Shown: in pieces, positions 8,485 to 52,862 of the stretch
Position numbering within the stretch: position 1 is the first letter of the stretch
Layout: the number at the start of each line of letters is the position of its first letter
Notes under the pieces: generated by a model
What the model saw: only the letters and a program-made list of their open reading frames with translations
The model's database searches: none
What the model was told of the DNA's origin: nothing
Made by a program: the position numbers and the translations under genes
Source of the DNA: Thuidium tamariscinum
Lineage: Eukaryota; Streptophyta; Bryopsida; Hypnales; Thuidiaceae
Assembly (NCBI GenBank): GCA_947034885.2
Contig: OX344750.2
Location: 558,001 to 622,000 of the forward strand
Length of the DNA stretch: 64,000 nt
Direction of reading: 5' to 3'

Positions 8485-8922
8485 ATGGCAAGTGAGGTAC
8501 ATGAAGGGCTGATTCTAGCCTTCTGGAATGTCAATCCGGTCGTGCCTACGGATGCACAAGATAAGCTGGAGTTGGAGGAAGACCTCAGGCAGATGGACTG
8601 CGAGGGGTTTATAGCTCGTCCATGGAATCTGAAGGACGAGGAGATGGTGGAAGAGTTGCTGAGCGGCCAGACCAACAAATGGAAGGGGATGGTCCAGGCG
8701 CTGCCAAGGGAGTGGAACGCGGCGATGTGGCGCAAGGTGTATGCGTTTGAACAAGGCGGAGATGCGACGGCCACCCAGACGGACAAGTTCCACCAGGGTA
8801 AGTTCCGGAGACCCACCAACTCCAAGGATGGATTCACGGTGGCGGAATGCACTTCGGAGAGACACAGGAGGTTACTTCAGTTCATGATGGCGATCCTGAA
8901 CCCGGATAGGCCAAGTAGGATT
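8485..8922 (+). pseudogene. N-terminal part of the ACCGGA-element protein
   Basis: The predicted peptide begins MASEVHEGLILAFWNVNPVV and is closely similar over about 145 residues to the start of the 698-residue protein at 48235-46139. The reading frame is cut by the insertion of a 99-bp MITE at 8923; related coding sequence continues on the far side to about 9149. No function can be assigned beyond membership of that element family. It is a relic of the intact copy. Confidence 0.7.
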
Positions 8923-9021
8923 TACTAGAAGAAAAGCCTAAAATTTTGTGTTTGTTTCAACACAACGCATCAAGTGAGTTGTGTTGAAACAAACACAAAA
9001 TTTCAGGCTTTTCTTCTAGTG
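8923..9021. mobile_element. CACTA-type MITE, 99 bp, with 3-bp target duplication
   Basis: This is a near-perfect hairpin. Arms of about 43 bp (outer part ACTAGAAGAAAAGCCT) differ at a single position and flank an 11-bp loop. The right terminus reads CACTAGAAG on the minus strand; the left has a T in place of the first C. The 3-bp sequence ATT occurs at 8920-8922 and 9022-9024. The uninterrupted relative at about 47795-47805 has a single copy of this site, which confirms insertion. The 3-bp duplication and CACTA terminus place it in the CACTA superfamily. Confidence 0.9.
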
Positions 9022-9151
9022 ATTACGGTCACCATAGCCAACACCATTTTTGGTGCGCTATCGGGTGACCGGAAGATAGATTGGGGATTAGTAATGCGGG
9101 ATTAGATGATCCGAATGGTGAATGGGATTGCCAGGAAGTCAAAACCCTCAA

Positions 9152-10444: not shown

Positions 10445-11242
10445 CTATCTCAAGCTATTCGAATGCCTCACGACATCCATAAGCTTATTGAATTCCTTCC
10501 GATTCCTCTCATCGCACAACATTTTGCGCCCCATTTTCCCGGAACTATTATCCCTAAAGGACTTTAAGCCATCGTCTCGAGCGAAATGGAGCCGCTGGAA
10601 CCAAGGCAAAAGGTTGTCTACGAGAAATGTGTCCTTTGGACCGTTGCCCTTGTTGGTCCACGTGTCCGGGAGAACAACATTCTCTGGCTTGTTGAGAATG
10701 TGTTTGACCGGACTATCGTCGACCATGATCGTATTAGTGGGCTTGAACTTCCCTCGGTTATTAGTAAAAAGATGACTGAGGTCTTTCAAGAACAGCTCCT
10801 TGTTTGTGCCTGGCTCCTTGAATACCGTGACGTACCCCGAACTTTCCCGGCACTTAAGTGTGGTGCAGGAGTTTTGCCCGAATACAAAATCAGGGGACTT
10901 TAGCCCGTTGAAGAGGAAAATGCAAATTTCTTCAGCAGTGGGCTTTTTCATTGAGCTCCACACTGAGACGTACGCAAAGAGTGATAATTGCCGCAAGAAC
11001 TCCGCGCAGTGTGGACGGATATAAACTAATTTCGGACCCACAAGCGCGGGTATGGTTGCTGAATGTGGCTGCCTAGAGTCACGAAGAGACTTCGAAAAAC
11101 CCTTGGACTTTGCATCCTCGGTGACACAGAGAATCCCATTCAGGTCCAGGACGACGTGAAGCCACCTATCCGCCAACTTGGAACTCAATGGGACCGGAAC
11201 ACCCTCCGACGATTCCCCACGAGAACATGCAGGATCCGATCC
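10445..11242 (-). CDS. FCP1/NLI-interacting-factor-like phosphatase domain
   Basis: The exon opens after a TAG acceptor at about 11243 (GSDPACSRGESSEGV) and runs to a TAG at 10445. It encodes the FCP1-homology (HAD-type) fold: WLHVVLDLNGILCVT at the start, YIRPHCAEFLRQLSLFAYVSVWSS in the middle, and TIMVDDSPVKHILNKPENVVLP near the end. Known members dephosphorylate Ser/Thr residues (the RNA polymerase II CTD or other targets) using the motif DxDxT/V. Here that motif reads DLNGI, so the second aspartate (general acid) is Asn, and catalysis is likely reduced or lost. Many plant paralogues of this family are divergent in the same way. The exon follows a short acidic exon at 11659-11407. Confidence 0.75.
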   Translation of the reverse strand, partial: GSDPACSRGESSEGVPVPLSSKLADRWLHVVLDLNGILCVTEDAKSKGFSKSLRDSRQPHSATIPALVGPKLVYIRPHCAEFLRQLSLFAYVSVWSSMKKPTAEEICIFLFNGLKSPDFVFGQNSCTTLKCRESSGYVTVFKEPGTNKELFLKDLSHLFTNNRGKFKPTNTIMVDDSPVKHILNKPENVVLPDTWTNKGNGPKDTFLVDNLLPWFQRLHFARDDGLKSFRDNSSGKMGRKMLCDERNRKEFNKLMDVVRHSNSLR

Positions 11243-14626: not shown

Positions 14627-14634
14627 CTTTTTTG
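14627..14634. repeat. 8-bp target duplication CTTTTTTG, left of hAT copy 1
   Basis: CTTTTTTG at 14627-14634 is repeated exactly at 31511-31518, on the other side of the element. An 8-bp duplication is diagnostic of hAT insertion. Confidence 0.95.
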
Positions 14635-14639
14635 CAGGG

Positions 14640-15130
14640 TTGCTTCCGTCGCATCACGTCCGTCCGTCAGGATGTCCGTCCGCTGACGTGACGGGGAGCC
14701 GAGCGTCCGTCAGGATGAAATTCACGACAGAATCCGCGACAGAGGATGAAAAATCGTGACAGCGGTCGTGGACGCCCTCACGGACGACCTCCGTGGACGG
14801 CCTGGAAGGACGTGCTCGGTGGACAGTTCCGATGGACGGTCCTGGCTGACTGGACGGCTTGGATGGACACTCTGGGTTCTGCGGACGGTCCGGATCCGGT
14901 GGACGGTTTTAGGGGACGGCCCCGCTCGCGGGGTATGGACGGCCCCGATGGACAGGACGTCCAATGGACGGCCTGGACAGACGCCTCCAAATCGACGGTC
15001 TGGGTACGGTCTACGCTTGGGAAGGACGGCTTGGATTGAGAGGAAGGTTGGACGGCCTGGGTTCGATGGACGGCCTGGCCGTGCCGTCGACGGTCAGGAT
15101 GGACGGCCTGGGCTCCGTGGACTGGAACTC
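14640..15130 (+). repeat. GACGG-rich array, left subterminal
   Basis: This GC-rich block of about 490 bp is built from degenerate GGACGGCCTGG, GTCGACGG and GTCCGTCC words immediately inside the left terminus. Open frames through it are artefacts of the repeat. Unlike the three other such arrays in the element, no gene or TATA box follows it directly. Confidence 0.85.
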
Positions 15131-15277
15131 TTTATTTGTAAGACTTAAAAGTCTGAGTTCATATTCGCAATCAAAATTTTCTCATTAGTCTATGAGGTTT
15201 AACCATCTCTCAAAAAATAATTTCCCATGGTTTTGTATTTTAGGCCTTCCATAGTCTAAATATAATATATATTCTGT

Positions 15278-16530
15278 ATTTAAAAAAAAGGTTTTGGTGG
15301 TTTGAATCAAAAAAAAGGAAATGGTTTGAATGAAAATAACGTTAATGGTTTGGAATTGTGAATAAAAAAAAATGTAAAACTGGTTTTGAAAAAAAATGTG
15401 TTAATTGTTCGAATAAAAAAATTATGGAAATGGTTTGAATTAAAAAAATGTTAATGGTTTGAAATGTTGAATGAAAAAAAAATATAGAAAGGGTTTGGAA
15501 AAAAATGTGTTAATGGCTCGACCAAAAAAATTTGGAAATGGATTGGGAAAAAAATGTGATTAGGGTTTGACTAAAAGAAATATGGAAATGGGTTGAAATG
15601 TTGGAAAAACAAATTTAGAAATGGTTTGGAGAAAAAATGTGTTAATTGTTTGACTAGAATAAATATGGAAATGGTTTAGGGTAAAAAAATGGCCAAGTTT
15701 TGAGTAAAGAAAAACGGTAATGGTATAGGGTGTTAGAAAGAAAAATATAGAAATGGTTTGGAAAAAAGATGGGTTAATGGTTCGACTAAAAAAAATATGG
15801 AAATGGTTTGAATCAAAGAAAAAGAAAAAGGAAATGCTTTGAATTAAAAAAAAGTTAATAATTTGAAATGTTGAATACAAAAAAATATAGAAATGGTTTG
15901 GAAAAAAAATGTGTTCATGTTTCGACTAAAAAATATATGAAAATGCTTCGAATAAAAAAAAATATGGAAATGGGTTGAATAAAAAAAAAGGCAATGGTTT
16001 GAAAGGTTGGAAAAAAACTTATAGAAAGGGTCGTGAAAAAAAATGTCTTAATGGTTTGACTAAAAAAAATATGGAAATAAGTTGGAAAGAAAATGTGTTT
16101 AGGGTTTGATTAAAAATAATATGGAAATGGTTTGAAAAAAAAACTTTCATGGTTTGAAATGTTGAATAAAAAACATTTAGAAATGGTTTGGAAAAAAAAT
16201 GTTAATGCCTTAATGGTTAAGGCTCAAATTGGAAATAGTTTGAATCAATAAAATGGGAATGCTTTGAATAAAAAAGAACGTTGATGGTTTGAAATGTGGA
16301 CGACAAAAAAATATAGAAATGGTTTAAAAAAATGTGTTCATGGTTCGACTAATAAAAATATGGAAATGGGTTCAATCTAAAATATGGAAAGGGTTTGAAT
16401 CTAACAAATGGAAATGGGTTAGGGTAAAAAAATGGTTATGGTTTGACATGTGGAAAAAAAAATGTGGAAAAATGCGGTGGGAAAAACTTGGGTTAATGGT
16501 TTGATTAAAAAAATTCGAAATGGTGGGAAT
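15278..16530 (+). repeat. AT-rich degenerate array (GGAAATGGTTTGAA units)
   Basis: Over 1.2 kb, short units such as ATATGGAAATGGTTTGAA and ATGTGTTAATGGTTCGAC alternate with A runs, without a fixed period. A shorter block of the same words in the opposite orientation lies at 21913-22340. Together they make long, imperfect inverted repeats either side of the RING gene. Confidence 0.85.
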
Positions 16531-16896
16531 CAAAAACAAAAGCATATATACTTGTGGCATATGTAAAAAATAGAATTTTGGCAATTTTTAAAAGTGAACT
16601 TACAAAATCTACTTTAAGTGAAAGTATGGCATTGGATTTAAATGAACTTGTTGCACATACATTTCAAGCAAACGTATTGAGTATTCTTTTCATTTGTTCA
16701 TGGTTAAGTTTTCAGTTTAAGTGTTTAACAAACAATACAGTTGTACGAGAAAAATGAAAATGCTTCATTGCCCAAAAAATGTACTTTTGCAACATGAGCA
16801 ACAAACGCTCGTAAATGGTCGTCATAGCCAAATACTATTTACAATACTAATATACTATACATCCGTCTAATGGCCTAACTCATCACCAGAAGGTAT

Positions 16897-19281
16897 TCAA
16901 CCTTGTTCTGGTTCTACAATGCCTCTGCCTATACTATTTCTCAAAAAATCTTGCAATCCTTCTCTAGATTGCAAACTGTTCAACGTAGCCACTACGGTCC
17001 GATCATATCGATCGTGCAAGTAGGAAGAAATGGTTGACAACATTTACACCTCATTGAACGTAGTGTCTTCGATGAACCTCATTTGTGCCTCATGATCCAT
17101 GTCTTGGAGTATTCCGATAGGATTTCCACTAGAGTCAAAAACCACATTCTCTGGATGTGGTCAGCGCACGAACTCCTGTCGGTCCAAGTCCCAATGGCCA
17201 CCAGCAAGTTGGCCAAAAAATACTCGCCGCCCTGGATCGCCCGCACTAATCAGCTTCTTGCACACCTCCGTAATCTTCGCATCATCGTTCCACGGAATGT
17301 CTTGCACGCTGCGCACGGCGAGGTGTCTACTGTCATGGCCCCACTTCCACATCCATATCATGTCATTACCCCAACTCCCTCTATTCTCATCGCCAGGCAA
17401 GTTCTCTTCGTTCAACTCGAAGTGTGGGGGCATGTAATCCTCCAACCCAAATTGGATGTACAACCGCCGGTGCAAAGGAGCCTTGCATTGTGCGCACCGC
17501 TTTCTTGTGACCATGTGCGGAATGAGACATCCGGGGTGGTACATATGTCCACACGTTCCAAGGCAAAATCCACCCTCGGGTCCAAACGGTTCCATGCAAA
17601 TCGTGCACGTCGTTCCATCCTTCACAAACTCGGGAACTATGGGCCACAGTAAGGGGGCATTGCCTTCTCTATCCACGGGCCCGTATCGATATCTCGCGGT
17701 GTTGAATTGGAAGTCTAGATGCGGATGCCCGTCCCAATCAATGCTTCCATTATCTCGATTTTGGGGCAATGTAACTGGAAACATATCCTCCAGTCGGGCC
17801 CACGATGTCAAGCCAAAATAACGTTGGCTACCATCTCTAAATTCTGCAGCTATTCTCCTGACTTCACGCTGCAGTTGTGCGACCTCGTTCATAGCCAAAG
17901 TGCATGCCAATCTCATGTTGCTCATGGCAAGCAACTTTTGCTCCCTCGTAGTTGACGTTTGTTGCAACAATCTATCCTTCATGGCATTTACAAATGCCAA
18001 CTCGTCCTGTAGTCCCTCCAAAGCCGCTGATACAGTCTCCATGTTGGCCTTGGCCTCATTGCACTCGCCCTCTGCACGCTCCGCTCGTGCCACAAGGGCA
18101 TCGTATGCCACGCGCTCAACGCTTATGAACTCTTGGCCCAATGCATCTGTTGATTGGGTTGCCGCATTTGAACTCTCACCACGAAAATGTGGTGTTGGGA
18201 ATATACCATGAGGCCGCACCCGGCGCACCGTCAATGGGTCAGCTGGCTCAATTAGACCATATGTGGCCCGCTCCACGACCTCATCCAATGGTGGAGTGCC
18301 ATCCGTGCTTTGGCGACGTTCACGTTCAAGCAAGTCAATGTTACTTGCTAGTAACTTAGCATTCGTTTCCTCCAAAGCCTTCACTCGTGCGTTGTGGGCT
18401 TGTACCTCCATCTCGTGCCTTCGCTCAGCTTCTGCACCATCCTCACGCAGCTTAATCACCAATGCACGTAATGCCTCTAATTCCCCATTTGCTCCAAATA
18501 CTTCATTAATTGTCATGGACGAGGGAATTGGGTGAATGGCGAGTGGCATGGGCTCGCTTGGACCCGCAATGGGCGCCTCCAATTCGGGAGCCACCGGATT
18601 TTGTTCGTTGGCGCCTTGAGGTGCATTGTCGACCTCCATGGGGTCCGCGGCCGCCGCTTCGTCCCCTTGTGCCCCAGCCACTCCTTCGCCTTCCAATTGC
18701 ACTTCAGGATTTGGTGGAATTCTACGGCTTTTAGTAGGGAAACGGCCGCCCCGTTGTTTAGCCGGATACGTGTTCCAATCCACGTCCTTGCCCAAAAAAA
18801 CCTCCGCATACGCCATTTGACACAATGCGAGGGTCCCATCCTTCTTCGAGAGGGTCCCCCAAAGTGCCAATGCCACCTCGGTCAACCGCTTCTTGAACGT
18901 TGGGTGTACGCAATACTTGATCAATGCAACGCCAGATCGCACTTGCGTCTCATTTCTCTCCCGTGGAAAATGGCGGTTGATGTGGGCCCAGTCCACGTAT
19001 CTCTGACATGTGGTGCGGGTCCATGGCTCAAGCGCCTGTTCCCACCCGTGCCCGACCAAAACTTCTCCAGTGTTGAAAGTCGCCCAGTCTACAGTGCTCC
19101 TGTTCCCACGACGCCTCCTATGTGGAGGTTCACCTTCATGGGTTACCATCTCCTGGTTTTCTACCACTGGGGGGTGATTTCCAGGAACTACCACCTCCTG
19201 GTTCTCTGCCATGGGGGGGTTCTCCACATGTATTACCATCTCTAGTGGGTTTAAGGCCATAGTACCTGCACACAATGCCAC
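16897..19281 (-). pseudogene. RING-H2 coiled-coil protein carried by hAT (copy 1)
   Basis: The frame from ATG at 19281 encodes 706 residues to a TGA at 17161-17163. In the second copy this codon is CAA and the frame continues another 88 residues to SIGRGIVEPEQG, giving a 794-residue full form. The N-terminal third (STVDWATFNTGEV to about residue 170) is unfamiliar. Residues about 265-320 and 400-480 are predicted coiled coil. The RING-H2 finger is C559, C562, C577, H579, H582, C585, C596 and C599, in the context CTICMEPF to RCAQCKAP. RING-H2 proteins are usually ubiquitin E3 ligases, so an E3-like role is inferred. A TATA box (19462-19468) and a GACGG array lie upstream. The truncation leaves the RING intact. 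Confidence 0.85.
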
Positions 19282-19461
19282 AACACGGTATGTATGTACA
19301 GATGACTATGCTCTGCCTCCTGTTGCGTGAGGGCAACTGGAATGTGGCAAAGCAATAGCCAAATGCTTGACTTCCTCCCGAATTGCAATGCAAAGCTTTT
19401 TTCAAGCTAGGACAGAGCAACTCAAGAGAGAAAGCAAGGTTAATTGTGGCTGAATTTGGGA

Positions 19462-19468
19462 TTTATAC
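19462..19468 (-). promoter_or_regulatory. TATA box of the RING gene
   Basis: The minus strand reads GAGTATAAATCCC here, about 180 bp before the ATG at 19281 and just downstream of the GACGG array. It is conserved in copy 2 at 57736-57742. Confidence 0.6.
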
Positions 19469-19534
19469 TCCCCATTACCAAGCCTCGTTAGGAGTGTTAA
19501 TTTGTGTCTAATCACATCGCCATGCACCACTTGG

Positions 19535-20315
19535 AGCCGTTGATGCGGACGGCCATCGACGGCTGGGGCGTCCAGGGAGCGTCGACGGAGGTTCGGGAGG
19601 CCGTCGACAGCTTCGGGATGACGTCACAGAGGCCGTCCACAGGTCCGGCGCCGTCAACGAGTTCGAAAACACTCATGAGTTCGAAAATCCATAATTACTC
19701 CGCCGAATTGCAAATTCGATGGCCAAAAATGGCTCTTCGTGACGGCCTGCCCGTGGTCTTGGACGGCCACTGTTCCGCTGTGGACAACCTGCCCGGACAG
19801 GTCAACGCTCCGGCCCGCAGCCAAATTCGTTGCGGACGGCCTGCCCAGGTCTTGGACGGGCCTGTGTTGCTGGATGGTTTTCTGGACGCCCTCCGTCCCC
19901 GTGACGGCCTGCTCAGGGCCTCGACGGCCAGGGAGGACTGACCCCTCTATTGCCCCTCCGGAGGGTAAATGTAAAAAATTCCCCCCTAATTTGTGCCGAT
20001 TAAATTTTAGATTTCAACACGTCCCCTAGCTAAATCGAGGTCTCTGATTCCAAATAAGAATTCAGAATTTGCAAAAAAGAATTTGTGTGAAAAATAAAAG
20101 AAATTCCAGGGTTTTCTGCAAGGGTAAAAAAGGGGCAATAGAGGGGTTAGTCCTCCCTGGCCGTCCTGGACAGGCCCGTCTTCCTGGACGGTTTTAGGGA
20201 CGCCCTCCGTTCCTGTGACGGCCTGCCCAGGTCCTGGACGGGCCCGTCTTCCTGGACGGTTTTCTGGACGCTCTCCGTCCCCGTGACGGCCTGCCCAGGT
20301 CCTGGACGGGCCCAA
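19535..20315. repeat. GACGG-rich arrays upstream of the RING gene
   Basis: Two blocks, 19535-19935 and about 20155-20315, are built of GACGGCCTGCCC, GTCGACGG and GTCCTGGACGG words and separated by about 200 bp of AT-rich DNA. They flank the point where the RING promoter would begin. The two blocks face each other as partial inverted repeats: AGGGAGGACTGACCCC near 19930 and GGGGTTAGTCCTCCCT near 20140. Confidence 0.8.
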
Positions 20316-21912
20316 TAGGTGGGCCCAATATATACTGAATTTCAATTAGGCAGGTGGAATCCAATTAGACAGCCAAGATCCAATTACGCAATTGGTATTC
20401 ATTTAGGCAGTTGAGATGCAATAAGCTGTAAGACAGCAGAATTTTAATGTGGGTGAACTGGTGAAGATTGCCAATGCAGTACCTGTATACTGTAATTTTT
20501 ATTGGAGCTCAGTGAGTTAACATTCACAGCTTGCATTTCTTTTTAAAAAAATTTGGGATTCATTCATGGTTGTGACAAGTGTGTGACTCATTCAGATCTT
20601 GTATTTCTTTTTAAATTTTTTTGGGATTCATGATTGTGACAAGTGTGTTAGCCATGTATGCATGGTAGGAAGCAAAGATTGCACTTATTTAAATTAAGAG
20701 TTGATTTGCCTTTTTCGTGTATGTCTTTAGATGAAAATATTTTTAGTTTATTTTTCAGTCAAGGAGAAATAGATGAGGAATCTAATACAAGTTGTTTCAT
20801 ATTTTTTGGAAGAAAAATTGAATTAATTATTAATTTTCAAACACAATTTGTCATAGGACCCTATTTGTGATCAGTAAGCCTTGAAAATCTATACATGCAC
20901 AGTTTCTAAAAGAATCTGGTTTGGTGAATAAACTAGTAATGCAACATGTAAAAAATGGTTTGAAATGGTTTCTAAATGTGTCCCTTTCAAAATCTGAAAT
21001 GAATTCTTCAATTAATCATTATTTCAAAACAATTTCACATTTGAAAGAAGGTAGTTTAACAACCATTTTTTATTTTGAATAAAATTAGTAGACACCTATA
21101 AGTACACTTAGTTACGATTGAATCCATTGTAACTCTAAAACCATCCATTCATATAGTAAAAATCAAATCTTAGCATGCTTCAATATAATCCACAATTAGT
21201 TTCCTCACAATGAGCTTTCCAATTCAGATTTCAGACCCTCCTATAGTCCTATTAAGCAGATAAAAAAGCCTGCATAGTTTATTAACCTCCGTGTGAGCTT
21301 CCTACCATAATAGTTGATTTGAGAGCAAGAGGTCCTTGAACTTCTTCATTTTAAATGTTAGAATGGATTTGCAGACTTACTGATACTTGTGTTTTTAAAC
21401 ACAATCGGCTTATTAAATTCCCTAAGTTTTCCTTATTATATAAATGAATGTGAATATGCTCTTGTGCCTTTAAATTGGTTTTAAATATTGCATTAATTAG
21501 GATTGTATACTATAGTTTAATTTCTCTATTGTGTGCTTTGTTTTCTTATAAATGGTGAAATATAAATAGTTGTAGCTTTGATTTTTGATTTTCAAACTCT
21601 TTAGTGGCATATAGATAGCATATGCTGTGCGTTTCACCATGTTCTTAGTTCATCAAAATCCTTGAAGCTCACATGTTTCCTTGTATACAATGTTTTTGAT
21701 CTTCTCAATATTTTGTAATTATGAAATGTAGAAAAAAAATAGGGTGTTCAAAAATAGTCCTTCAAAGAATTTACAAAAGAAAATAGGGTACTCTAAAATA
21801 CACTCCGGTAGCTTTATTCTACTAATAGGGAGGGAAAAAAACATGAGAAGGACATAAATACCCCCCCATTAAATACCCCATTATCGCACGTGGTTACCAA
21901 AAGATAAAGGGG
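20316..21912. other. AT-rich spacer inside hAT copy 1
   Basis: About 1.6 kb of AT-rich DNA with only short chance frames. It is conserved nearly base for base in the second copy (58591-60186). I see no gene or RNA structure in it. Confidence 0.6.
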
Positions 21913-22340
21913 GTGAACCCCCAAGTCTATTATTCAAACCATTCCCATTTTTTTTATTCAAACCTTTCCCATTTTTTTTATTCAAACCATTCCCATTTTT
22001 TTTATTCAAACCATTTCCACATTTTTTTCCAAACCAAATCATTTCCATATTTTTTTAGTCGATCCATTAACCCATTTTTTGGTCCAAATCCCTTCTATAT
22101 ATTTTTGCCCAACACCCGAAACCATTAACGTTTTGCTTTATTCACACCACTTCCATTTTGGGGATTCAAACCTTTTCCCTATTTTTTTTAATTGAACCAT
22201 TAACACATTTTTTTCCAACCCATTTCCACATTTTTTTTATTCGAACAGGGCTCGACAATTTCTTTCCAAACCCTTTCTATATTTTTTTGGGGTAACTTTT
22301 TTAACCCTTTGACGTGTATTTTTGGTTCAAACCATTAACA
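21913..22340 (-). repeat. Inverted counterpart of the AT-rich array
   Basis: Units such as TTATTCAAACCATTCCC and TTTTTCCAAACC are the reverse complement of the units at 15278-16530. About 80 bp of this block are missing from the second copy together with the following DNA. Confidence 0.8.
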
Positions 22341-23790
22341 CACTTGCGGAATTCTAACTCTTTCTTCTAGGGTTTATCATACACTTCGGCAAAGAGAGGA
22401 TTAGAGCGGTTTAGGGTTCCGCAGAAGAGTCTGAATTCTGAAAATTGGTTGGTGCCCACTAACGGAGTCTTGCTTGCCAGTGCCCCCGTCCTAAACTCCT
22501 AATTAGTGCTCGCCATTCACTTATACTTTCATAACTCATAGTTTCATAACTCATAAGTAGAGTACATGACTACATGACCAGAATATTATGCAATATAGTA
22601 ATATACTAATATGTACATGTAGTACTAATCTAATTTCCTAAAAAATACATGCCTAGTCGGATGGCTCCCGAATTTAAAATTGAGAAGTTTAAATCCCTAC
22701 ATATCCGTAGGGCAACTTCTAAAATTTAGGGTCCATCACTTCAGCCATTCTCGATATGAGATGAAGCACTGGAAGGCAATGTAAAATTTTAGCCATGTAC
22801 ATTACACACTACCCACCAACAAGTTTAGGATCATCCAATTCTGCCATTGAAACAAATTTTGCATAATATAATCAAGCATACCAAATGTGGATTTCACATA
22901 AGTCAAATTCAGTATTTGGTGAATTGTTTCATTCAAAACTCATGGTTTAGCATGATAATTGATTATAAAACATTGGTGATGAATTAGCATTAATTTGCAA
23001 AGAGGAGATATGTAGGAAACATCCATATGCACATCTTTCATACCAAAAAACATCCTAGATTCCTAGTAAGTTACAACAATATAATTGGGTTGAAGAATTC
23101 AATTAGGCATTTTATGTGACCCCATTTTGTAAAATAGATGTATGTACGCTTGAATTAGATTTAGGCAAAGTCATTGTACGGAAATGATTTAAGTTCCTCA
23201 AGGAGTTATAGTGTGACCATCAAATAGCAAATGCTAATTAAGCCGGATTAAATTATTAAAATTAGCTCCTATTTCCTAAATTTACGGGGGAGAATGAAAT
23301 TAGATGGAAAGGGAGGAAGTAGAGCTTTTTGACGACACAACTGAGAACGGATACGCATCAACCGAAGAGGTATGTGTTTAGACTAGAACCAATAAGTTTA
23401 ATCATTTCATGTTATTTCTTTTAATTACTTCAAAATTTGCAAAATTAGATTGACGCTAGGAAAAGAAAGATCAATTACCGAATACAAATTATAATGCACT
23501 TCTTAAGTTATTAAATTACTAAACTAGACATTTTACCCTCATTTACGCAAAAGTAAAAAGGAACTTAAACCCTAAACCCTAAATCCTAAAACCTTCGGTT
23601 GGGCAAGGGCTTTAGGCTGGGTTTTTGACCTTCTCAAAATTCAGTGTCAGCCCTTAGATGGGCGGTTTCTGGCCTGTTACCTTATTACCTTGTAGAGGAA
23701 TTTCAGTTGCACGAGGCTTGCCATTAAGTCTTCGCTGGCATCTTCACCGCCCTGTGCTTCCCCGACGATCCCCTTAATGGTTCAGAATTC
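22341..23790. other. Spacer of hAT copy 1; 22260-23193 is absent from copy 2
   Basis: This AT-rich spacer has no recognisable gene. Comparison with copy 2 shows that about 930 bp (22260-23193) are absent there: copy 2 passes directly from GGGCTCGACAATT to CCTCAAGGAGTTATAG at about 60537. Because the missing part includes array units, a deletion in copy 2 is the likelier direction. Confidence 0.7.
23572..23592. repeat. Interstitial plant telomere-type repeat
   Basis: Two AAACCCT units followed by AAATCCT lie about 230 bp before the GACGG array of the kinase gene. Copy 2 has about four units at 60906-60940. AAACCCTAA (telo-box) words are known promoter elements in plants. Confidence 0.7.
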
Positions 23791-23794
23791 CCGG

Positions 23795-24215
23795 GACGCC
23801 CTGTGGGGTCGCGTGGACGGCCTCGTTCCACGACGGACCCCCGAATTCCCAGGACAGCTTGTGCGTCCTGTCGACGGTCTCGCAGTTCCTCGACGGTTTC
23901 CTGGACGGCTTCGAAATTCCCGGGACGGATGGGTGCGTCCCGTCGACGGCCTCATCGTCCTCGACATTCCCCTCGACGGCTTCCCAATTCGGAGGACGGC
24001 GAGCGCGTCCCCTCGACGGTCTCGCAATTCCTCGACGGTCCCCACGACGGCTTCGAAATTCCCGGGACGGATGGGTGCGTCCCGTCGACGGCCTCATCGT
24101 CCTCGACATTCCCCTCGACGGCTTCAGCGCGTCCCCTCGACGGTCTCGGAGTTCCCGACACCCCTCGACGGCTTTCGAGTTCCTTGGACGGATCGGCCGT
24201 CCATGCGACGGCTCG
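23795..24215 (+). repeat. GACGG-rich array upstream of the kinase gene
   Basis: CTCGACGG, GGACGGCTTC and GACGGATGGGTGCGTC words repeat over about 420 bp, including a duplicated segment (GGGACGGATGGGTGCGTCCC near 23931 and 24063). Six-frame open frames through this block, on both strands, are repeat artefacts. Confidence 0.85.
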
Positions 24216-24223
24216 CCAACGAC

Positions 24224-24230
24224 TATATAA
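24224..24230 (+). promoter_or_regulatory. TATA box of the kinase-like gene
   Basis: CGACTATATAAGGTGGG lies right after the GACGG array and about 200 bp before the ATG at 24426. It is conserved in copy 2 at 61577-61583. A leader intron probably runs from GTGAGT at 24373 to TTTTTCAG at 24424. Confidence 0.65.
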
Positions 24231-24425
24231 GGTGGGCCAGGTCCCCCACTCTGCACGAGTCTCTCCTGCTCTGACGGTGCTCTCTTGCCCTGGATTGGTT
24301 GCAGTCCTTGCTTGGGAGCGCGGGTGCTTGCGAGGAGGCTCGGCTGAGGAAGGGGGGATAGTTTTCACATTTGTGAGTACTGAACCCTAATTCCTTGGTT
24401 TTACCATCGCATATTTTTTTTCAGA

Positions 24426-26087
24426 ATGGACGGGCGAGGTGCGTCGAAGCGCAAGGTTGATGAGTGGTTTTCAGGCATCGGAGATCCTGTTGGTGAGCAG
24501 TCTCCAGAATCCATTGACTGCGTATCAGAGGCAGTATTGGCCGGAGAAGGGGTCGGTGGTGCGGCTGGAGGAGAATCTTCGGGGGCCAAGAAAAAAAAGA
24601 GCAGGCGGAGGCACAAGGCTACGAATACAGACGACTGGCCAAGGAAGGCTGCGACCAGGAAAGTGCAGGAAGTGGCATTGGATTTTTTGGAGCAATATAC
24701 GATTGCTCAATTGAATACGACCTACGTCTCGCGTGGATTGCAAGGGGTGGAGACAATTAAAAAAAAATTCACCCACATGTTTTGGACAACAATGGGCGAG
24801 GATGAGTGGCTTGAAGATCGCACAAAGGAACACTTCCGTCGTTGGCTTGACGAACAAGTGCAAACTTGTGTTTTCAACATCGCCCAAGTCGCCGCATCGA
24901 TAAAGGGCTTCAAACGAGATGTAGCGCCGAAGCAACAAGCATTGCATTTGTTGCACAAAAAGGTGTATTGGTGGCATGACGCAATGCGAGCGTTGTCTTC
25001 CAACAATATCCGCTCTGCCCCATGGTTTCAGCAGAGCCAAAGCTTGTCCCTAGGCCAAGCAGGTGCGGGAGGAGTGGTATTTCTTGAACGAGGAGTGGTG
25101 GTGGTTCCATTGTCAGGCCACAACAAACAAGGGGGGCACGGGAGGGTGCGTAAAGTGAGCCTCCAAAATTCAAGGCACATTCCCCCCATGATGGAATTGG
25201 CGGGCAAGACAGCCCTATATGTGGATCAATTGAAGAAGTCGTGGGAGAAGTTGTCCATCGAGGCTTTGGTTTGTCCATGTAATCATCTAGGGGTCATAAA
25301 TTTTTTTGCTATAAATGACATGACCATGGAGTGTTATTCTCAATGGTGGAATGGAGGAACATTGGGAGCCATGTTCGCATTGGACCAGAAAAACCGAGAT
25401 TATGCTGAGATCGGGGAGCTTGCCTACCATGCAACTCCACAGACGATGCAAGAAGCCAAAAGACTCTTGGCTTATCGTAGAAACCGCACCGAGCTTGCAT
25501 GGGCGTTAATTTGCATCGTGGATGCGGTGCAACAATCTTCGGTGCTCCACAACGACATCACGCCAGAAAACATCATGTTGCATTTTCCGAATGATGATGG
25601 GCGAACAGTGTGGATTGGGCTATGTGATTGGGGAATGGCTAGTCGTATCAATGAAGAAACCCATTCTTTGTACCAGTTTCAATGTGCAAGCCAAATGCGG
25701 GCTACACGTCAGAAACGTTGGTGGGTGGCCCCTGAATTGATGTATGTTCCTGGAGAGGCGGGCACTTCGGTATCCCCCACTCGTGCAGATGGGGCACCGT
25801 GTGTTAGTATACATACAGACGGATATGCTGTTGGGAAGCTTGCGGAGAAGATATGGAAGAAAGACCGCGAAAATACGGAAATGCTTCCCGACCATACAGC
25901 GTTTGGTACATTTCAAGCCACATTGGGCGAATTGTGCAAAGAGGACCCACTACAACGACGCACGGTTACGTACGCCGTGGGACGAATTAGTGGCGCCCCC
26001 TTATTTTGGACTCCACCCGTTGATTGCTACCGCGAGGCCCGCAAGGAGCAAGCACTTCTACAAGAACAAGCAAGGAATGAAGATTAG
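24426..26087 (+). CDS. Protein-kinase-like protein carried by hAT (copy 1)
   Basis: An intact 553-residue frame. Residues 1-65 are acidic, then basic (KKKKSRRRH), and may hold a nuclear signal. Residues 70-200 form a helical region of unknown type (FLEQYTIAQLNTTYVSRGLQ). The C-terminal half has kinase marks in order: a glycine loop GGHGRVRKV near 236-244; SVLHNDITPENIMLHF with H375, D377 and N382 (HRD replaced by HND); CDWGMAS with D401-W402-G403 in place of DFG; APE at 435-437; and TDGYAVG with D465 after it. The key Asp and Asn residues are kept, so activity is possible, but I cannot place the VAIK lysine. The ATG follows one base after a TTTTTTTTCAG acceptor. I cannot match it to a named plant kinase family. 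Confidence 0.8.
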   Translation: MDGRGASKRKVDEWFSGIGDPVGEQSPESIDCVSEAVLAGEGVGGAAGGESSGAKKKKSRRRHKATNTDDWPRKAATRKVQEVALDFLEQYTIAQLNTTYVSRGLQGVETIKKKFTHMFWTTMGEDEWLEDRTKEHFRRWLDEQVQTCVFNIAQVAASIKGFKRDVAPKQQALHLLHKKVYWWHDAMRALSSNNIRSAPWFQQSQSLSLGQAGAGGVVFLERGVVVVPLSGHNKQGGHGRVRKVSLQNSRHIPPMMELAGKTALYVDQLKKSWEKLSIEALVCPCNHLGVINFFAINDMTMECYSQWWNGGTLGAMFALDQKNRDYAEIGELAYHATPQTMQEAKRLLAYRRNRTELAWALICIVDAVQQSSVLHNDITPENIMLHFPNDDGRTVWIGLCDWGMASRINEETHSLYQFQCASQMRATRQKRWWVAPELMYVPGEAGTSVSPTRADGAPCVSIHTDGYAVGKLAEKIWKKDRENTEMLPDHTAFGTFQATLGELCKEDPLQRRTVTYAVGRISGAPLFWTPPVDCYREARKEQALLQEQARNED

Positions 26088-27598
26088 AGAATAGTATTTT
26101 AGTGGCAATGTAATCGTAGACGTACCTTAGTACTTGCTTTTACCACAGTATAGTCCACGAACTTTGCGTCACTGAATTTTGTACTAACTCCTTTTTGAAA
26201 TAAATATATGTAAATCTTTTTGTTCCATTCGAGTATGATTCTGGTGAGTGGATTTGTGAGTAGTTCTGTCCCTTCGTAAATTTTGGACTGAATGCCATGT
26301 TAACCCCTAAAGGACCACGGCCGTTTTTCAACCCAAAACCACTCAAAACTGCCATTTTTGTTCCATTCATCCATGAAAAACAAAAAAACTAAATTTTTAG
26401 AATCTAACCATAGGATCTTGAACTTTACTTAACTAAGATGATGTGGTGAAAATTTCATGAAGTTTGACCGTATAGATAGGAAGATATGAGCATTCAAAGT
26501 TGGAAAACAAAGTTTTCTTAAACACTAGTTTGCAACTTCAAATGACTTTGTCCTCCATTTATGTAATCTTTTTGCACTACAGACCTTGAATTAAAATTTT
26601 TTTATTGAGAAATTGAGCTAAGAGCTTAGGAAAAAAAATTCACAAAATAAAGACTTTTTGTCATTCTTTAAAAAATTGTCAAGTAGATGTAGGTCCAAGA
26701 TTGAAAGAAAAACTAAATTGCAAATATTTCATAGATGGAATTGAAACACAATAATCCCAATGGTGAGATTGTTCTAGAAAACAAAATCAACCTTGTCCAA
26801 CAATTTTTTTTTTTAAATTGTGGAAATTGCATTCACAAATGAATCCTAGAAGTTATTTTTTCAAGAAGATGCTTAGATTGCCCAAAAAACAAGATTGTTC
26901 ATAACTTTCACATTACTAATCCAAATGGAATGAATCAAAGCTTTACTTGTAGACAAAAATATAATCTATAAGAAAAAAAATTATTTTTAAAATTTTGAAG
27001 TTTCTGTAGATTTTTTTTCTGCCCGGCAACATAAAAATAATGTTTATGATGGCATAACTTTTGCTCCCGGTCACCAATTGAAAAAAATTGAATATTTCCA
27101 CGGAGCTAATCAGTTTTTTTATCTTATGTGAAAATTTCAATAAAATTCATTAAAAATTGAAGTCACAAGTACTTGCCCTAATTCTTCAAGTTCCCCGAGG
27201 GGACTTTTAGGGGTTAATTCAGTACTTTCAATCATTTTCTCCATATTCCAGATTACATTTGTTTTCTTGTACATGGCAAAATTCATAATGATCTCAAAAT
27301 ATCCAAGCATGTAGGTAACCAACTTCGAAGAATGAATCCAAATTTAAGAGTATAGAACACATGGCAAACGACAAAGCAAATATTTCCATTTCTTGGGACA
27401 AATATGCATAAATGGATCCGTTGTTGCGTTGTAGAATTTGTGACATGTGAAGATAAAAAATTTCTACCCATGCGCCCTACATGAGCACAGGAAGCATATG
27501 TAGTATTTATAATTAATGTCGAATTTCACATGCAAGGTATTCAGCCTTACACAATATTACATAAGATGACATGGAGACATTTTTTTCCCTAGATGCTC
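26088..27598. other. AT-rich spacer between the kinase and transposase genes
   Basis: The two genes converge here (plus gene ends at 26087, minus gene ends at 27599). The 1.5 kb between is AT-rich with no supported gene and must contain both 3' ends; AATAAA-like words occur, for example AAATAAATATATG near 26199. Confidence 0.5.
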
Positions 27599-30500
27599 TC
27601 AACGTCTTGCACGTGTACGATTAGGAGCCATGCTCCTTGCAGCAGCCTCTCGCGTGGTTGCTTGATTGTCTTGAGGTGCAGGTGGAGGACCTCTACGAGT
27701 CCCTCTATAATCACTATCTCCCGGAACTTCACCATCTTCACCTATACTAGGACCCATGGATTCATCATCATGATTGGACGTTGCCCTACCGACTTCGCTT
27801 GGTGAGTTGTCAGGGCTGTCTGAGCCTTCACCTACTATAGAAGCCAATCTGCGGATTGTTCGCCCTCCTACTCCATCTCCAGCGGTATCCACACTGGGCC
27901 CCGTTGGTCCAGGGAGAAGACCTTCGCGGAGAAATGGTATACTCGCCGCTTCTTCCCTTCTTAGCCTTCTACGTGTTCTTCTACTCACTCGTTCATTGGT
28001 AGGGCTTTCTTCACGTGGCCGCGGGCGTCGATTAGTAGTGCGTGTAGGCGGTGCAACGGGTTGTTCTGAGGATGGAGGTGCATTCCTTCGCTCGGTCATA
28101 TTTAGAGTTGGGAAGAGACCGGCCAATCGTGTACCGACTGATGGAGTTTCTTGGTTGGGGCGGACTCTAGAAGATGAAGGCCGTGCTGAAATTTGGACGG
28201 GTGGATCATCCAAGCTAGGCGCTTGTGGTCGCACGCCGATCGTGTCTCGAAGCAATGTGCGAAAGTCTATCTCGACACCAATGGGGGATCTGTGGCTACG
28301 AGTGTTCCGCGCCACTCGGGGATCTGTGGCAACGACCTCATCTTCGCCTTGTCTTTCTACCACAACGACATGTTCGTGTCTCCGGGTACGCATTTCTTCT
28401 TCAATCGGCCCTATAACCGGCGAAGGTGGGGCTTCAACCCCTTCGTTTTGATTTCCACCACTTGACCCCGCAATCGATGTACGTGGCATCCATGACGGAC
28501 TGCCATCATTTCCCCCGTTGTCATTTCCATCCTCATCTCCCCCGTGGTCATTTCCATCATTATCCGCGCCATCAAAGTCAAATACGGACTCGTCAATTAG
28601 GGGACCCCTTTCTTGCCTTTCACCCAAAGGCCGAAATGGTGGATCATCATCGCCACTGGAACTGTCGTCTGAGTCATCGTTGTTAGCGTCTGACATAACT
28701 GAACCACGATCCAAGCCATCTGATTCGGTTGTCATGGAATCTTCGGACAACATGTTCTCAGTGTACCATCGTGCTGCATCCGCCACACCCCTTTCCCTGA
28801 GAGTCCTGGAATTGGTATAAATGTAAACCAATTCCTCCGCGCGCTCAGATGTCAATCTGTTGCGAGACTTGCTGTGGACAAATGAATACATGCTCCAATT
28901 GCGTTCGCATGATGATGCGGAACATACTTGTGCGAGGATCCTTCTTGCAATAGGTGCAAGCGTATGAGCACCGGCTCCGAGAAGATCCCACCATTCATGC
29001 GGCTCCAAATTCAAAGTATTCACATCGGGAAGTCCAGCGAACATGCCTCGGCGGTCTCGAAAGGATTGGTACTCAAACAAAGCGGCTGCATATCCCAACC
29101 CTCCAACTGCCAATTTGCGTAGTACTCTAAGAATGGCCTCCTTTGCCTCGTTATCGTCTATTAGTATAATTTCATCAAGGAGGAATGGATTGAGCAGGGC
29201 AGCTGCGTAGTGCAAATCCGTCTTCATCAAATCCCATCGTTCGTAAAACGCGTATTCAGCACGGTCCGCATAATTTGCCTCCAATGAAAATGGTCAATTC
29301 CTCAAAGCCAAAACATACTTTTCTAGCTTCTTCATCACGATCCATGCTTTGCCCATGACCGGATGTTTTCCATCAAACTCTCGAAGAGCCACCAACACAG
29401 GCTCTACCATATGCACAAAGTTGAGACACCTCCTCCAGAACTCGTCCTTTCGAACCCTACGTCGAACCTTTTCTGGCTTATTGTGTATTGCAGCGTTCGA
29501 GGACCTCACATATTCGTTCCACTGCGGATCATGGACTGTAGATTCCACGGCTTCCTTGACCTCGGCCAAACGCTCGATCATGAGGAACATGGTCGCAAAA
29601 CGTGTCTCAATGGGATTCTTCAACATGAGGTTAGGAGAATGTCGTCGGAAAATGGCAAGTGGCATGTGATGCGTGCGAATGAATTTCACGATTGATTTTG
29701 CTTTCTTCACCATTTTGACCACCCAAAGTTGCTTGCCCCAATCTTCAAGTAGAAGGTCAAGTGCATGCGCGGAACAACCTTGGAAATATAGGTGAGGGAA
29801 TTCGCGAGTAATTTGAGTACCAGCCAAACGCATGTTTGGCGCATTGTCCGTACAAACTTGCACCACATTCTGTCCCCCCACCGCGTCAATGTAATCGATC
29901 ATGCGATTAGCCACATAAACAGCGTCTTTGCTTTCGCCTGTAGTGTCCACCGATCCCAAAAATACTTCTCCACTCGTGCACGACAACATTACATTGATCA
30001 ATGGCCGATGGCTGACATTGTCCCATCCGTCAGAACATATAGTGACACCGTACTTGTGGATAGGCCCCCTTGTCTTCTCCGCTACCAATGCAGCCACTTC
30101 CTCCTTTGTTGATGTCATGAGCTTCGTACGTATGGCATTGTAAGGTGGAGGTTTGTAAAGAACTCTGGACTCGGAGGTTGATTTCACGGCATCCACAAAA
30201 GCGAGGTGTCTCACCACATTGAATGGGATATTTGCTTCATAGAAAAACTTCGCCCACTTCTTGTCTAGTACTTGCTTTTTGGATGTGTCCATCCCTTCTT
30301 GTACGGATAATTGCCTCAGCGGTTGACTATGGGTCGAAGAAGGGACAGGCGCCTCTGATGATCGAACTTGAGAATTTTGGCCCAAAGTATTTCCTCCCCC
30401 TCCACTAATTGAGATTGAAGCATTGGGTAGTTCTTGATCACGTACCACCCTCGTTGGATTCGATGACGGTGATGTCACTTCCACATCATATTCCTCTTTG

Positions 30501-30742
30501 TCTTCGGAGACCGTAGGAACATTCCCCCCACAATTGAAAAACATAGCCTTCACTGCTGCACTGGCCTTGTTGCACATTCTCACTCCGGGGAGGGTGTCAT
30601 TTCGTCTATAACCCAAGTGGAAAAGCAAGCGATCCTTGCGGTAACTAATCTTCGTTTTGCAGAACTTGCATTCCACTTTCCCATCCTCTTGTAGCCTGTA
30701 CCAAGATTCCCATTGTGTCCTCCCCCCTCCCATTGCTCCCAC
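27599..30742 (-). pseudogene. hAT transposase
   Basis: One frame of about 1,048 codons runs from ATG at 30742 to TGA at 27599, with a single in-frame TGA at 29294-29296 (ALRN*PFSLEANYADRAEY). Residues 20-57 form a BED zinc finger (C25, C28, H42, C57). The RNase-H-like core has D238 (TICSDGWDN), D299 (VVQVCTDNAPN) and a glutamate near residue 613 (CSASSCERNWS), followed by the hAT dimerisation block (RNRLTSERAEELVYIY). Beyond it is a low-complexity tail of about 390 residues, acidic and then Arg/Pro-rich, unusually long for the family. The protein excises and inserts the element with 8-bp duplications. Except for the one nonsense codon it looks complete. Its counterpart in copy 2 lies outside the window. 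Confidence 0.9.
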
Positions 30743-30947
30743 TGGTTCTTCACTTGAAACTGCACAAACAAAACAGGTTAGTATTCAGTTTGGATGTGAT
30801 GTGGAAATAACACTTACTGCTTTCACAGCAAGTGTTCCTCCCACACACTCTTCTTGGACTTCACTCTAGTGCAATGGCTGTGTGCCAACTAGGTCATAAG
30901 AGTAGAGATCAGCAAGGAAAAGTGACCTTCAAATACACGGCTTGTGC

Positions 30948-30954
30948 TATATAC
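30948..30954 (-). promoter_or_regulatory. TATA box of the hAT transposase gene
   Basis: The minus strand reads CAGTATATAGCAC about 205 bp before the ATG, just downstream of the right-hand GACGG array. A likely acceptor (TTTGTGCAG, minus strand, near 30765) suggests a leader intron, as in the kinase gene. Confidence 0.5.
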
Positions 30955-30964
30955 TGTGAAGGCC

Positions 30965-31440
30965 TGGCAGCAGTCATCCAGTCGACGGCCTGTCCGTTGG
31001 CGCACTGTGGACAGCCGCGGACGGGACGTCGTGGCCGTCCCCGCAGACGCTCTGGCCGTCCAACGGACGTCCCGCTGTCCAGACAACGGCCTGGCCGTCC
31101 CCGCAGCGTGGACGGACTCTGGACGCCGTGACCGTCCGCTGAACGGAAAACTGTCGAGGCGACGGCTTGGCCGTTCCGTCGAAGTGCACAAGCCGCGGAC
31201 GCTCTGGCCGTCCCCGCTGCGTGGACGGACTCTGGACGCCGTGACCGTCCGCTGAACAGAAAACTGTCGAGGCGACAGCCTGGCCGTCGCGCCTAAATCC
31301 TAAAGCCGCGGACGCTCTGTCCGTCCACGCGACGGCCAGTCGTCGAGACGGCCGACAAGCCGTCTGCGCACTGTCGACGGACTTCATCCGCGCTGTCGAC
31401 GACGCCGTCAGCATTCGGGACGGCCTCTGACGCGTCCTGC
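30965..31440 (-). repeat. GACGG-rich array, right subterminal and transposase upstream
   Basis: GACGG and CCGTCC words (for example GGCCGTCCCCGC and TGACCGTCCGCTGAACG, each repeated) fill about 475 bp between the transposase TATA box and the right terminus. The block includes a repeat of about 100 bp starting near 31095 and 31217. Confidence 0.85.
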
Positions 31441-31510
31441 CGCGTCACGACTGCCGCGTCATGACATCCCGACGGGAAAAGCCCACGTCACGTCAGGATA
31501 GACAACCCTG

Positions 31511-31518
31511 CTTTTTTG
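31511..31518. repeat. 8-bp target duplication CTTTTTTG, right of hAT copy 1
   Basis: This is an exact match to 14627-14634, directly after the CAACCCTG terminus. Confidence 0.95.
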
Positions 31519-35463: not shown

Positions 35464-37263
35464 ATGGCAACGCAATCGGATCCAAACTTACAACGACGTC
35501 GCAGTACAATCCGCATTACTGAAGATGGTCGTACGCTTCGCCACATTCCTGTAGGTGACTTGATATTGCATACAGAGCTGCGAGTGGCAACCGAAAAGAA
35601 TGTTCAGTCTTTCCGATGTCCATGCCGAGATTGCAAAGGTGGACGTCGGAAATCCATCCAAGTCATACGGCAACACCATGCGGCAGTGGGTAGGGACCCA
35701 TTTCTCAAAAAATCGCTCATTGGCGGGGACCCCATTGAGGGGTACCCTGCAGGTGGAATCTGGATTGAAGATGTTACATTTGACGACGACAACGTTGTCA
35801 CAGACGTCCACGAAGACATCAGATCCAACAACGCAGACAATGCTGGAGTAGAGGATTTCAACATGGAAGACCCTCAACACAACGGCCCTGCACTAGATGA
35901 GTTCCATGAAGTTCAACGTCAAGTTATGGAGGCTCTAGATCGAGGGGACGCTTTGCATGAAGAGGCAGAGGCTGCAAGGGAGGCAGTTGACCAAGATGAT
36001 GGGGCCACTGATACCTTAGAGGATTTGGATGATTTATACACCCAAGCAACCACCCCCGTATATGCAGGATCATCTACAAGCATTGTATCAGCAACAATCA
36101 TAATCATGAATATGTGCACAGTGTTCCATGTGAGCAACAAATTCAGCGATGAATTATTCCGATTCTTATCCACCGATTTACTACCGCAAGGCAATAAATT
36201 GCCACATACCCATTACGAGGCACGGAAGAGCATAAGACAATTGGGCTTGCATTATAACAATGTGCATGCATGCCCAAATGGTTGTGTTCTTTTTGAAGAT
36301 GATTATGGAGGGTGTGATACTTGCCCTAAGTGTAACACCTCTCGATGGTTGGACGGGAGCAACCGTATTCCTTCGAAGGTCATTCATCACTTTCCCCTCA
36401 TTCCCAGGTTGAAACGAATGTGGAGGTCGACGGAGATCGCACGCATGCTCACAGGGTACACTAAGCACGTCAGCTCAGACGGCGTGATGCGCTCAGTGGT
36501 GGACAGCCCAGCATGAAAGCACATTGACATTGATGTCGCGTTTGACAACTTCGGAGCTGAACCTCGTAACATGCGGCTTGCATTAGCTTTAGATGGTGTC
36601 AACCCATTCAAGCTGAACAACACGAATTGGTCAACTTGGCCCGTGCTGATCTTAATATACAATTTGGAGCCATGGTTTGTGATGAAGAAATTTTTCATTT
36701 CATTGTGCATCTTGATTTCCGGGAAGCACTCCCCTACCTCTAGTGGTCTTGATGTCTTCATTCGCCCTCTTTTGAAGGAGTTGCAGGAACTATGGCATGG
36801 AGTTCCGGCACTTGATTTTTCACGACCAGAAGGGAGTCGTACATTCACACTACATGCCATTCTCATGTGGACCATCTCAGATTTTCCAGCTTATGGACTC
36901 ATCTCCGGACTTTGCACCAAGGGCTATAAAGGCTGCCCTCCCTGTGGACCTGACACTGATGCAAGAATGGCAAAGACGGGTGATGTTCTTCCAAATAGAA
37001 GAACAAAGGGATCCAAGATTGTATATGGTGGCATTCGTCAGTACTTGCCTAGGCACCACCCGTACCGTAGGAACTTGAGATTCAATGGTAAAGTAGAGCA
37101 CCGTTCGAAGCCCAGAATAATGACAGGTCAAGATGTTATCCGCTACGCAGCTTGGCGGCAATCATACTTGGATCTAGGAGGGAGGGAAAATGGACCAGAC
37201 GACCCTGTGCACTTCACGGGAGTGAAAAGACGATGTGCTTTGTATGATCTGTCGTACTGGGAG
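35464..37263 (+). pseudogene. CACTA II transposase exon 1 (TNP2 domain)
   Basis: The ATG at 35464 opens the frame MATQSDPNLQRRRSTIRITE, with a Cys-rich N-terminus (FRCPCRDCKGGRRKS), an acidic linker and the TNP2 core: CPKCNTSRWLDG, FPLIPRLKRMW, DGVNPFKLNNTNWSTWPVL, WTISDFPAYG and CPPCGPDT. One in-frame TGA at 36514-36516 sits where relatives have Trp (DSPA*KHID). The exon ends at TACTGGGAG/GTGAGG (37263/37264). It encodes the cut-and-paste transposase of CACTA II and is clearly diverged from the CACTA I copy, so the two are separate subfamilies. Confidence 0.88.
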
Positions 37264-38972: not shown

Positions 38973-39300
38973 GTAAGTGCCCCTGCCCATTATGTTCCCA
39001 TTAATCTTCATCACGGAAGAGGCAGGCTAGTGTGTTGTTCTTAGGATATGTCCACAATATCGTTTCTAGGGGATTTATAGAGCACCAGCAACAGTTGATG
39101 GATTCTGTGACTACTGTGACCTGTGAAAGTTAGAAGACGTTCATGAAGCGTTCGTTTCAATGTTCACTTTGACATTTCACAAGACGGCACTTTGTACAAG
39201 TGAACGTCAAAGTGGACGTCAAAGTCAACGTCTCTGTCGATGTTAAAGTCAGTGTATAGCCGGTTCGCTCTGACAACCCTTTATGTAATCTTCTGTGCAG

Positions 39301-52857: not shown

Positions 52858-52862
52858 CAGGG

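Follow-up and report, generated by a model that had tools for sequence, protein, structure and literature searches.

A giant hAT transposon with two additional genes

A 64,000-bp stretch of the Thuidium tamariscinum genome (Bryopsida; assembly GCA_947034885.2, contig OX344750.2, positions 558,001–622,000 of the forward strand; hereafter the window, numbered from its first base) contains a giant hAT DNA transposon, a single 16.9-kb unit at 14635–31510 that carries a RING-H2 gene and a protein-kinase-like gene in addition to its transposase gene. The interpretation favoured here, at slightly better than even confidence, is that of a plant-type hAT element with resident accessory genes, the promoters of which share presumed transposase-binding repeats with the element ends; the RING and kinase genes would then belong to the element and would not be recent scraps of host genes. 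The main features of this copy (copy 1) and of a second one (copy 2) are as follows.

14635–31510, unstranded: hAT transposon copy 1, 16,876 bp, with an 8-bp terminal inverted repeat (TIR) and a perfect 8-bp target-site duplication
14627–14634, + strand: left target-site duplication CTTTTTTG, from the sequence
31511–31518, + strand: right target-site duplication CTTTTTTG, from the sequence
17161–19260, − strand: RING-H2 coiled-coil protein gene, copy 1, 699 amino acids from the first ATG (open frame, Pfam and solved RING-H2 matches)
24426–26087, + strand: protein-kinase-like gene, copy 1, 553 amino acids, open; Pkinase E value 1.6e-8
27599–30733, − strand: hAT transposase gene, 1044 codons; DUF659 E value 1.4e-36, Dimer_Tnp_hAT E value 9.9e-10 (Pfam)
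52858–64000, unstranded: the left part of hAT transposon copy 2, 99.37% identical to copy 1
55172–57535, − strand: RING gene, copy 2, with a single TAG in frame, at codon 106 of the comparison numbering
61779–63440, + strand: kinase gene, copy 2, with a single TAG in frame (codon 71)

Copy 1 begins with CAGGGTTG at 14635 and ends with CAACCCTG at 31503–31510, an inverted repeat that is perfect over 8 bp and extends no further, and CTTTTTTG stands immediately outside each end. With both strands counted, the terminal 8-mer has only three exact matches in the window, one at each end of copy 1 and one at 52858, where copy 2 begins. The duplicated CTTTTTTG occurs eight times on the two strands of the window, the two duplications included; it is not a rare word, but its exact placement at both ends of copy 1 is rare. 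Elements of the hAT superfamily are defined by target-site duplications of 4–8 bp and TIRs of at least 8 bp (PMC6027215). The 8-bp duplication of copy 1 lies within this range, its perfect 8-bp TIR (CAGGGTTG) is exactly at the minimum, and its transposase gene encodes both the catalytic region and the C-terminal dimerisation domain of a hAT transposase. A sequence-only reading of this stretch had reported these ends, the perfect 8-bp duplication and three genes inside; the boundaries are borne out at 14635–31510, and Pfam finds the transposase (−), RING (−) and kinase-like (+) genes in copy 1.

Repeat blocks at the element ends and upstream of the genes

Copy 1 contains four G+C-rich blocks with a high density of the word GACGG, two of them subterminal and two internal. 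Their positions, with GACGG counts and the means from shuffled sequence, are listed with the nearby putative promoter features.

14635–15130, unstranded: GACGG block 1 (left subterminal), 21 sites, shuffle mean 4.9
19540–20315, unstranded: GACGG block 2 (upstream of the RING gene), 23 sites, shuffle mean 2.6
23760–24215, unstranded: GACGG block 3 (upstream of the kinase gene), 22 sites, shuffle mean 5.0
30960–31510, unstranded: GACGG block 4 (right subterminal, also upstream of the transposase gene), 21 sites, shuffle mean 4.2
19461–19467, − strand: TATA-like box upstream of the RING gene, a sequence match (the element has 15 such)
24224–24230, + strand: putative TATA-like box of the kinase gene (in CTATATAAGG)
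24373–24424, + strand: probable intron in the 5′ untranslated region (UTR) of the kinase gene (GTGAGT...TTTTTTTTCAG)

The highest value reached in 300 dinucleotide shuffles per block was 12 GACGG sites. The longer word GACGGCC occurs 7, 11, 4 and 9 times in blocks 1–4, a total of 31, and is absent from the rest of copy 1; outside the two copies it occurs three times in 35,981 bp, a flank density that predicts 0.19 occurrences in the blocks against the 31 present. Orientation of GACGG is mixed (15/5, 15/8, 19/3 and 10/11 on the + and − strands in blocks 1–4). The 25 best matches listed between blocks run to only 11–22 bp, so the blocks seem to have arisen by accumulation of a short word and not by the copying of whole blocks, and block 1 of copy 2 has an extra 51-bp unit carrying the word. 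The ratio of observed to expected CpG is 1.13, 0.94, 1.39 and 1.31 in blocks 1–4 and 0.74–0.75 outside them.

TATA-like boxes are present on the gene side of block 2 (19461, −) and block 3 (24224, +), and a third, read by eye, lies near 30950 (−) on the gene side of block 4. It had been claimed that each additional gene has its own promoter; a TATA-like box does lie upstream of each of the three genes, but there are 15 such matches element-wide and the transposase box was placed by eye. Because a GACGGCC array precedes each of the three genes and is also found at the ends, the additional genes are tied to the element, and the blocks upstream of the RING and kinase genes suggest joint regulation. 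The transposase of the maize element Ac binds AAACGG repeats near the element ends that are required for transposition (PMC3260210), and the GACGGCC arrays are, on that analogy, most likely sites where the transposase binds.

The three genes

The transposase frame of copy 1 is interrupted by an in-frame TGA at codon 480 of 1044 (29294–29296), and the C-terminal tail of the predicted protein is long and of low complexity. Placing the TGA within an intron was considered and rejected: the GT..AG readings tried by eye either break the frame or excise hAT-like sequence (presumably resembling ordinary plant hAT transposase), and a stop mutation is simpler. There is a probable 5′ UTR intron ahead of the ATG. 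The N-terminal region shows what by eye is a BED-like zinc finger, for which Pfam gives no match. The N-terminal piece of the transposase gave no match to solved structures at E 1, and the C-terminal piece none to genome contigs in viral and prokaryotic collections, a negative of little weight.

The RING protein matches four Pfam models, all below their curated cut-offs (best 27.1 against 27.3 bits), with zf-RING_2 at an E value of 5e-6 just under the cut-off. Eight zinc ligands in C3H2C3 order were located by eye, and solved RING-H2 domains match the protein, the best being RING finger protein 24 (E value 1.4e-5). An AlphaFold model made without relatives places long helices before the RING-H2 finger at low confidence (mean predicted local distance difference test score, pLDDT, of 43.2). 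The RING frame of copy 2 extends 88 codons past the copy-1 stop and copy 1 has a further stop 38 codons on, so that the copy-1 protein may be shortened at its C-terminus. A-rich tandem arrays (unit ~24 bp) at 15276–16540 and 21930–22340 flank the RING gene region in inverted orientation. The RING gene is not taken to be a nested transposon between these arrays, as a search for inverted ends with a duplication of at least 4 bp returned only intra-array or weak hits.

The kinase-like protein matches Pkinase with 34.8 bits (cut-off 31.7; E value 1.6e-8), spanning 72 of the 263 profile positions, and five kinase-type NCBIfam models at E values of 0.0007–0.03, all far under cut-off. Alignments to solved kinases are weak (best E value 0.017) and cover the catalytic loop HND..N, DWG (DxG) and APE motifs, and the whole protein has no match to solved structures at E 0.01. 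The glycine loop (236), AxK-like lysine (257), F-helix aspartate and final arginine were placed by eye, and an AlphaFold model without relatives (mean pLDDT 36.6) is too poor for fold comparison. On these sequence features the gene is properly called kinase-like. Searches of viral contigs with the kinase, RING and N-terminal transposase proteins found no relatives, a result of little weight with collections that hold no plant genomes.

Comparison of the two copies

Copies 1 and 2 align over 11,076 columns at 99.37% identity and differ by 70 mismatches, of which 58 are transitions, and by 7 gaps. They have the same orientation and lie 38 kb apart. Copy 2 is visible up to the window end at 64000, which corresponds to copy-1 position 26647, and its right end, target-site duplication and transposase gene lie beyond the window. 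Homology begins precisely at the terminal base, and the left flanks of the two copies do not match each other. This start at the exact terminal base within an unrelated left flank argues for transposition rather than duplication, and two insertions that have their left end in common but lie beside different left flanks point to past movement. The presence of the RING and kinase genes in both copies supports their having moved together with the element. The sequence-only reading had described a near-identical copy at 52858 with different flanks and had placed the two further genes inside the boundaries of both copies; the identity, the different left flank and the RING and kinase genes stand, but the right flank and the copy-2 transposase fall beyond the window, and presence in both copies holds for the RING and kinase genes only.

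One difference of 935 bp separates the copies and is probably a deletion in copy 2.

22259–23193, unstranded: 935-bp stretch in copy 1 that is missing from copy 2 (from the alignment; ends set by eye, ±2 bp, with a shared TT)

Mismatches are clustered, with 39 of the 70 in 18500–20600 (the largest value in 1000 permutations was 29; the window width was chosen post hoc), which suggests exchange or gene conversion with a third, more diverged copy.

Sequence decay, constraint and alternative explanations

Under the favoured reading, the element's own transposase is predicted to bind the GACGGCC repeats as the Ac transposase does its AAACGG hexamers, and the protein that pairs the ends would also occupy and regulate the three gene promoters. 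Both copies in view are probably decaying members whose movement depends, or once depended, on intact transposase made elsewhere. The likeliest use of the RING and kinase proteins would be to aid the element through ubiquitination and phosphorylation of host or transposase proteins, and they may possibly be anti-silencing cargo. A further proposal, which we regard as doubtful, makes the element a multi-gene selfish unit with its own regulon, in which one protein reads GACGGCC at the ends for movement and at three promoters for expression, the targets of the E3-ligase-like and kinase-like proteins are host silencing or the transposase, and the whole constitutes an independently evolved hAT counterpart of the anti-silencing system of the VANDAL elements of Arabidopsis.

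Several observations weigh against resident, useful genes. Each visible copy holds broken genes, and the kinase gene of copy 1 is the only one free of stops, whether relative to the other copy or in its own frame. Between the copies the kinase has one synonymous and eight nonsynonymous changes (one of the latter being the copy-2 stop), and with an expected nonsynonymous share under neutrality of 69–78% these 8 of 9 indicate no constraint (probability of a share as low as or lower than that observed, 0.89–0.96). In the RING gene, 715 compared codons (19305–17161) give a raw count of 11 synonymous and 14 nonsynonymous changes; the span takes in 15 unchanged codons before the ATG as well as the terminal stop codon, where there is one synonymous and one nonsynonymous change. 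With that stop codon left out there are 10 synonymous and 13 nonsynonymous changes (one being the copy-2 stop), and the 13 of 23 have a probability of 0.019 without and 0.133 with transition bias. Such signal as exists lies in codons 20–78, where 4 of 11 changes are nonsynonymous (P 0.024 with transition bias), and not elsewhere (9 of 12, P 0.76), and overall there is little or no constraint on RING between the copies. These substitution tests are weak, with few changes in just two copies, one of them incomplete, and cover only the period since the two copies parted. The limits of the GACGG blocks were drawn after the motif density had been seen, the blocks contain tandem duplications such that their sites are not independent, and no gene stands behind block 1 at the left end. 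Homologues of the accessory proteins were not found in viral contigs and solved structures, collections that hold no plant genomes.

The sequence-only reading had proposed functional cargo with near full-length frames. Copy 1 does have frames of 553 and 699 amino acids, but both genes carry a TAG in copy 2, the copy-1 transposase has its TGA at codon 480 and the copy-1 RING frame ends 88 codons early. Currently functional cargo is not borne out, with the copy-1 kinase alone lacking a stop and the kinase unconstrained between copies. Frames evolving without constraint had been named as evidence that would speak against the proposal; in the comparison made here, on two copies and the RING and kinase genes, that is what the kinase shows for the recent past, and the objection applies in part.

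Among the alternatives, the most substantial is chance capture of the RING and kinase genes from the host, followed by passive carriage, amplification with the element and present decay, an explanation we consider plausible at clearly less than even likelihood. The unconstrained kinase (one synonymous to eight nonsynonymous changes, P 0.89–0.96), the stops in copy-2 kinase and RING, the earlier end of the RING frame in copy 1 and a RING signal (13 of 23, P 0.019 or 0.133 without or with transition bias) confined to codons 20–78 are all as it would have them, and there is precedent in maize Ds elements with captured gene fragments (PMC3260210). It sits less well with the long copy-1 frames (553 and 699 amino acids), the kinase catalytic-loop motifs and the full set of RING zinc ligands, and the element's repeat word upstream of both genes is unexpected for scraps. 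An anti-silencing system resembling VANDAL/VANC would have an element protein recognise the GACGGCC arrays and lift silencing of non-coding regions, aided by ubiquitination or phosphorylation of host silencing factors. This possibility, raised by analogy, is unlikely: the arrays are indeed non-coding and upstream of genes, copy 2 has its 51-bp extra word-bearing unit and CpG is raised in the blocks (0.94–1.39 against 0.74–0.75), but high CpG is also expected from the word itself, and GACGG is of mixed orientation where VANC sites keep to a single one. Neither the RING nor the kinase protein, moreover, matches a known DNA-binding domain at E 0.1 (Pfam and NCBIfam), and the VANC domains DUF1985 and DUF287 have no Pfam match at E 0.1 in RING, kinase or the two transposase pieces.

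The four GACGG blocks could also be two subterminal pairs, as in a macrotransposon formed by fusion of a RING element (~14.6–20.4 kb) with a kinase and transposase element (~23.5–31.5 kb) and moving by its outer ends. No internal CAGGGTTG end in correct orientation is present beside blocks 2 or 3 with one mismatch allowed, however, and these blocks lie directly upstream of gene starts, leaving the fusion quite improbable. Segmental duplication or an assembly artefact in place of transposition is scarcely credible; it would account for there being only two copies in one 64-kb window, in the same orientation and 38 kb apart, but not for homology that begins exactly at the terminal CAGGGTTG, for unrelated left flanks or for the perfect 8-bp duplication, and the 70 mismatches and 7 gaps speak against a contig assembled twice.

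Nested inserts and surrounding sequence

Two smaller inverted-repeat elements are nested within copy 1.

26304–27213, unstranded: nested TTAA-flanked inverted-repeat element, 910 bp, with ends CCCCTAAAGG / CTTTTAGGGG, between the kinase and transposase genes
19930–20158, unstranded: nested inverted-repeat element, 229 bp, in block 2, with 19 of 20 terminal bases matching

The larger insert appears piggyBac-like in form, and its left part is also present in copy 2. A TAAACCC array, presumably resembling plant telomere repeats, lies within the element at 23566–23579 in copy 1 and at 60905–60947 in copy 2, where it is 14 bp longer. Outside the element, CACTA-type transposase pieces are found at 1176–4888 and 35464–38976, both with Transposase_21 and DUF4218 and the first with DUF4216; like the TAAACCC array, these pieces are in keeping with a plant-lineage genome. 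An inverted repeat pair (7928–9149 and 47676–48786) is 81–83% identical, and its right member is partly overlapped by a 698-amino-acid frame (46139–48235) with no Pfam match. A frame at 10445–11188 encodes an NLI-interacting-factor-like phosphatase (NIF, E value 3.8e-17). Two viral contigs that match the 18-base left end exactly are put down to coincidence: they have no nucleotide match to the window (E 1e-3) and no protein match to the four pieces (E 0.01), and their surroundings look unrelated.

Relationship to known elements

To our knowledge, most known DNA transposons carry little besides the transposase. The maize hAT element Ac makes an 8-bp target-site duplication and has a transposase gene only, and VANDAL elements belong to a superfamily other than hAT. 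Large hAT-like elements with passenger genes (ToxhAT) and giant retrotransposons with ubiquitination-linked domains (Burro) are already known. If the favoured reading is correct, the hAT superfamily too can build multi-gene, self-regulating elements, and this element offers a testable case of a transposon meddling with host ubiquitination and phosphorylation. Narrow searches of the open-licence literature found no hAT element bearing both a kinase and a RING gene, which is weak evidence of absence, and the available main text of the Giant Transposons review (PMC6431247) contains no word starting with 'hat' or 'kinase'.

Burro, a giant planarian Gypsy-like element, resembles the element described here in having ubiquitination-linked extra domains, including one of RING type, for which meddling with the host has been proposed, but it is a retrotransposon rather than a DNA transposon, and a kinase is not mentioned for it in the available text (PMC6431247). 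VANDAL elements with VANC are likewise multi-gene DNA transposons with dense short motifs in their non-coding parts, often as tandem repeats gained or lost between copies; their sites share one orientation (PMC5735166), whereas those here are mixed, no VANC domain is present and the parallel is one of analogy. The fungal ToxhAT (14 kb) is similarly large, takes its name from a hAT-like transposase and carries several other genes, but its TIRs are 74 bp long, it lacks an identifiable target duplication and, as a composite, it combines at least two transposons (PMC6737239); the Thuidium element has 8-bp TIRs, a perfect 8-bp duplication and different genes. Within the green lineage, the Chlamydomonas hAT element Gulliver, at 7,144 bp, is the longest consensus among 276 plant hAT sequences (PMC6027215), and the present element is 2.4 times longer. 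Ac/Ds shares with it short TIRs, a hAT transposase and subterminal repeats ending in ACGG, of which the AAACGG repeats of Ac bind transposase, but Ac is 4.6 kb in length (PMC3260210) compared with 16.9 kb and two more genes here, and, unlike in Ac/Ds, the repeat word also lies upstream of the internal genes.

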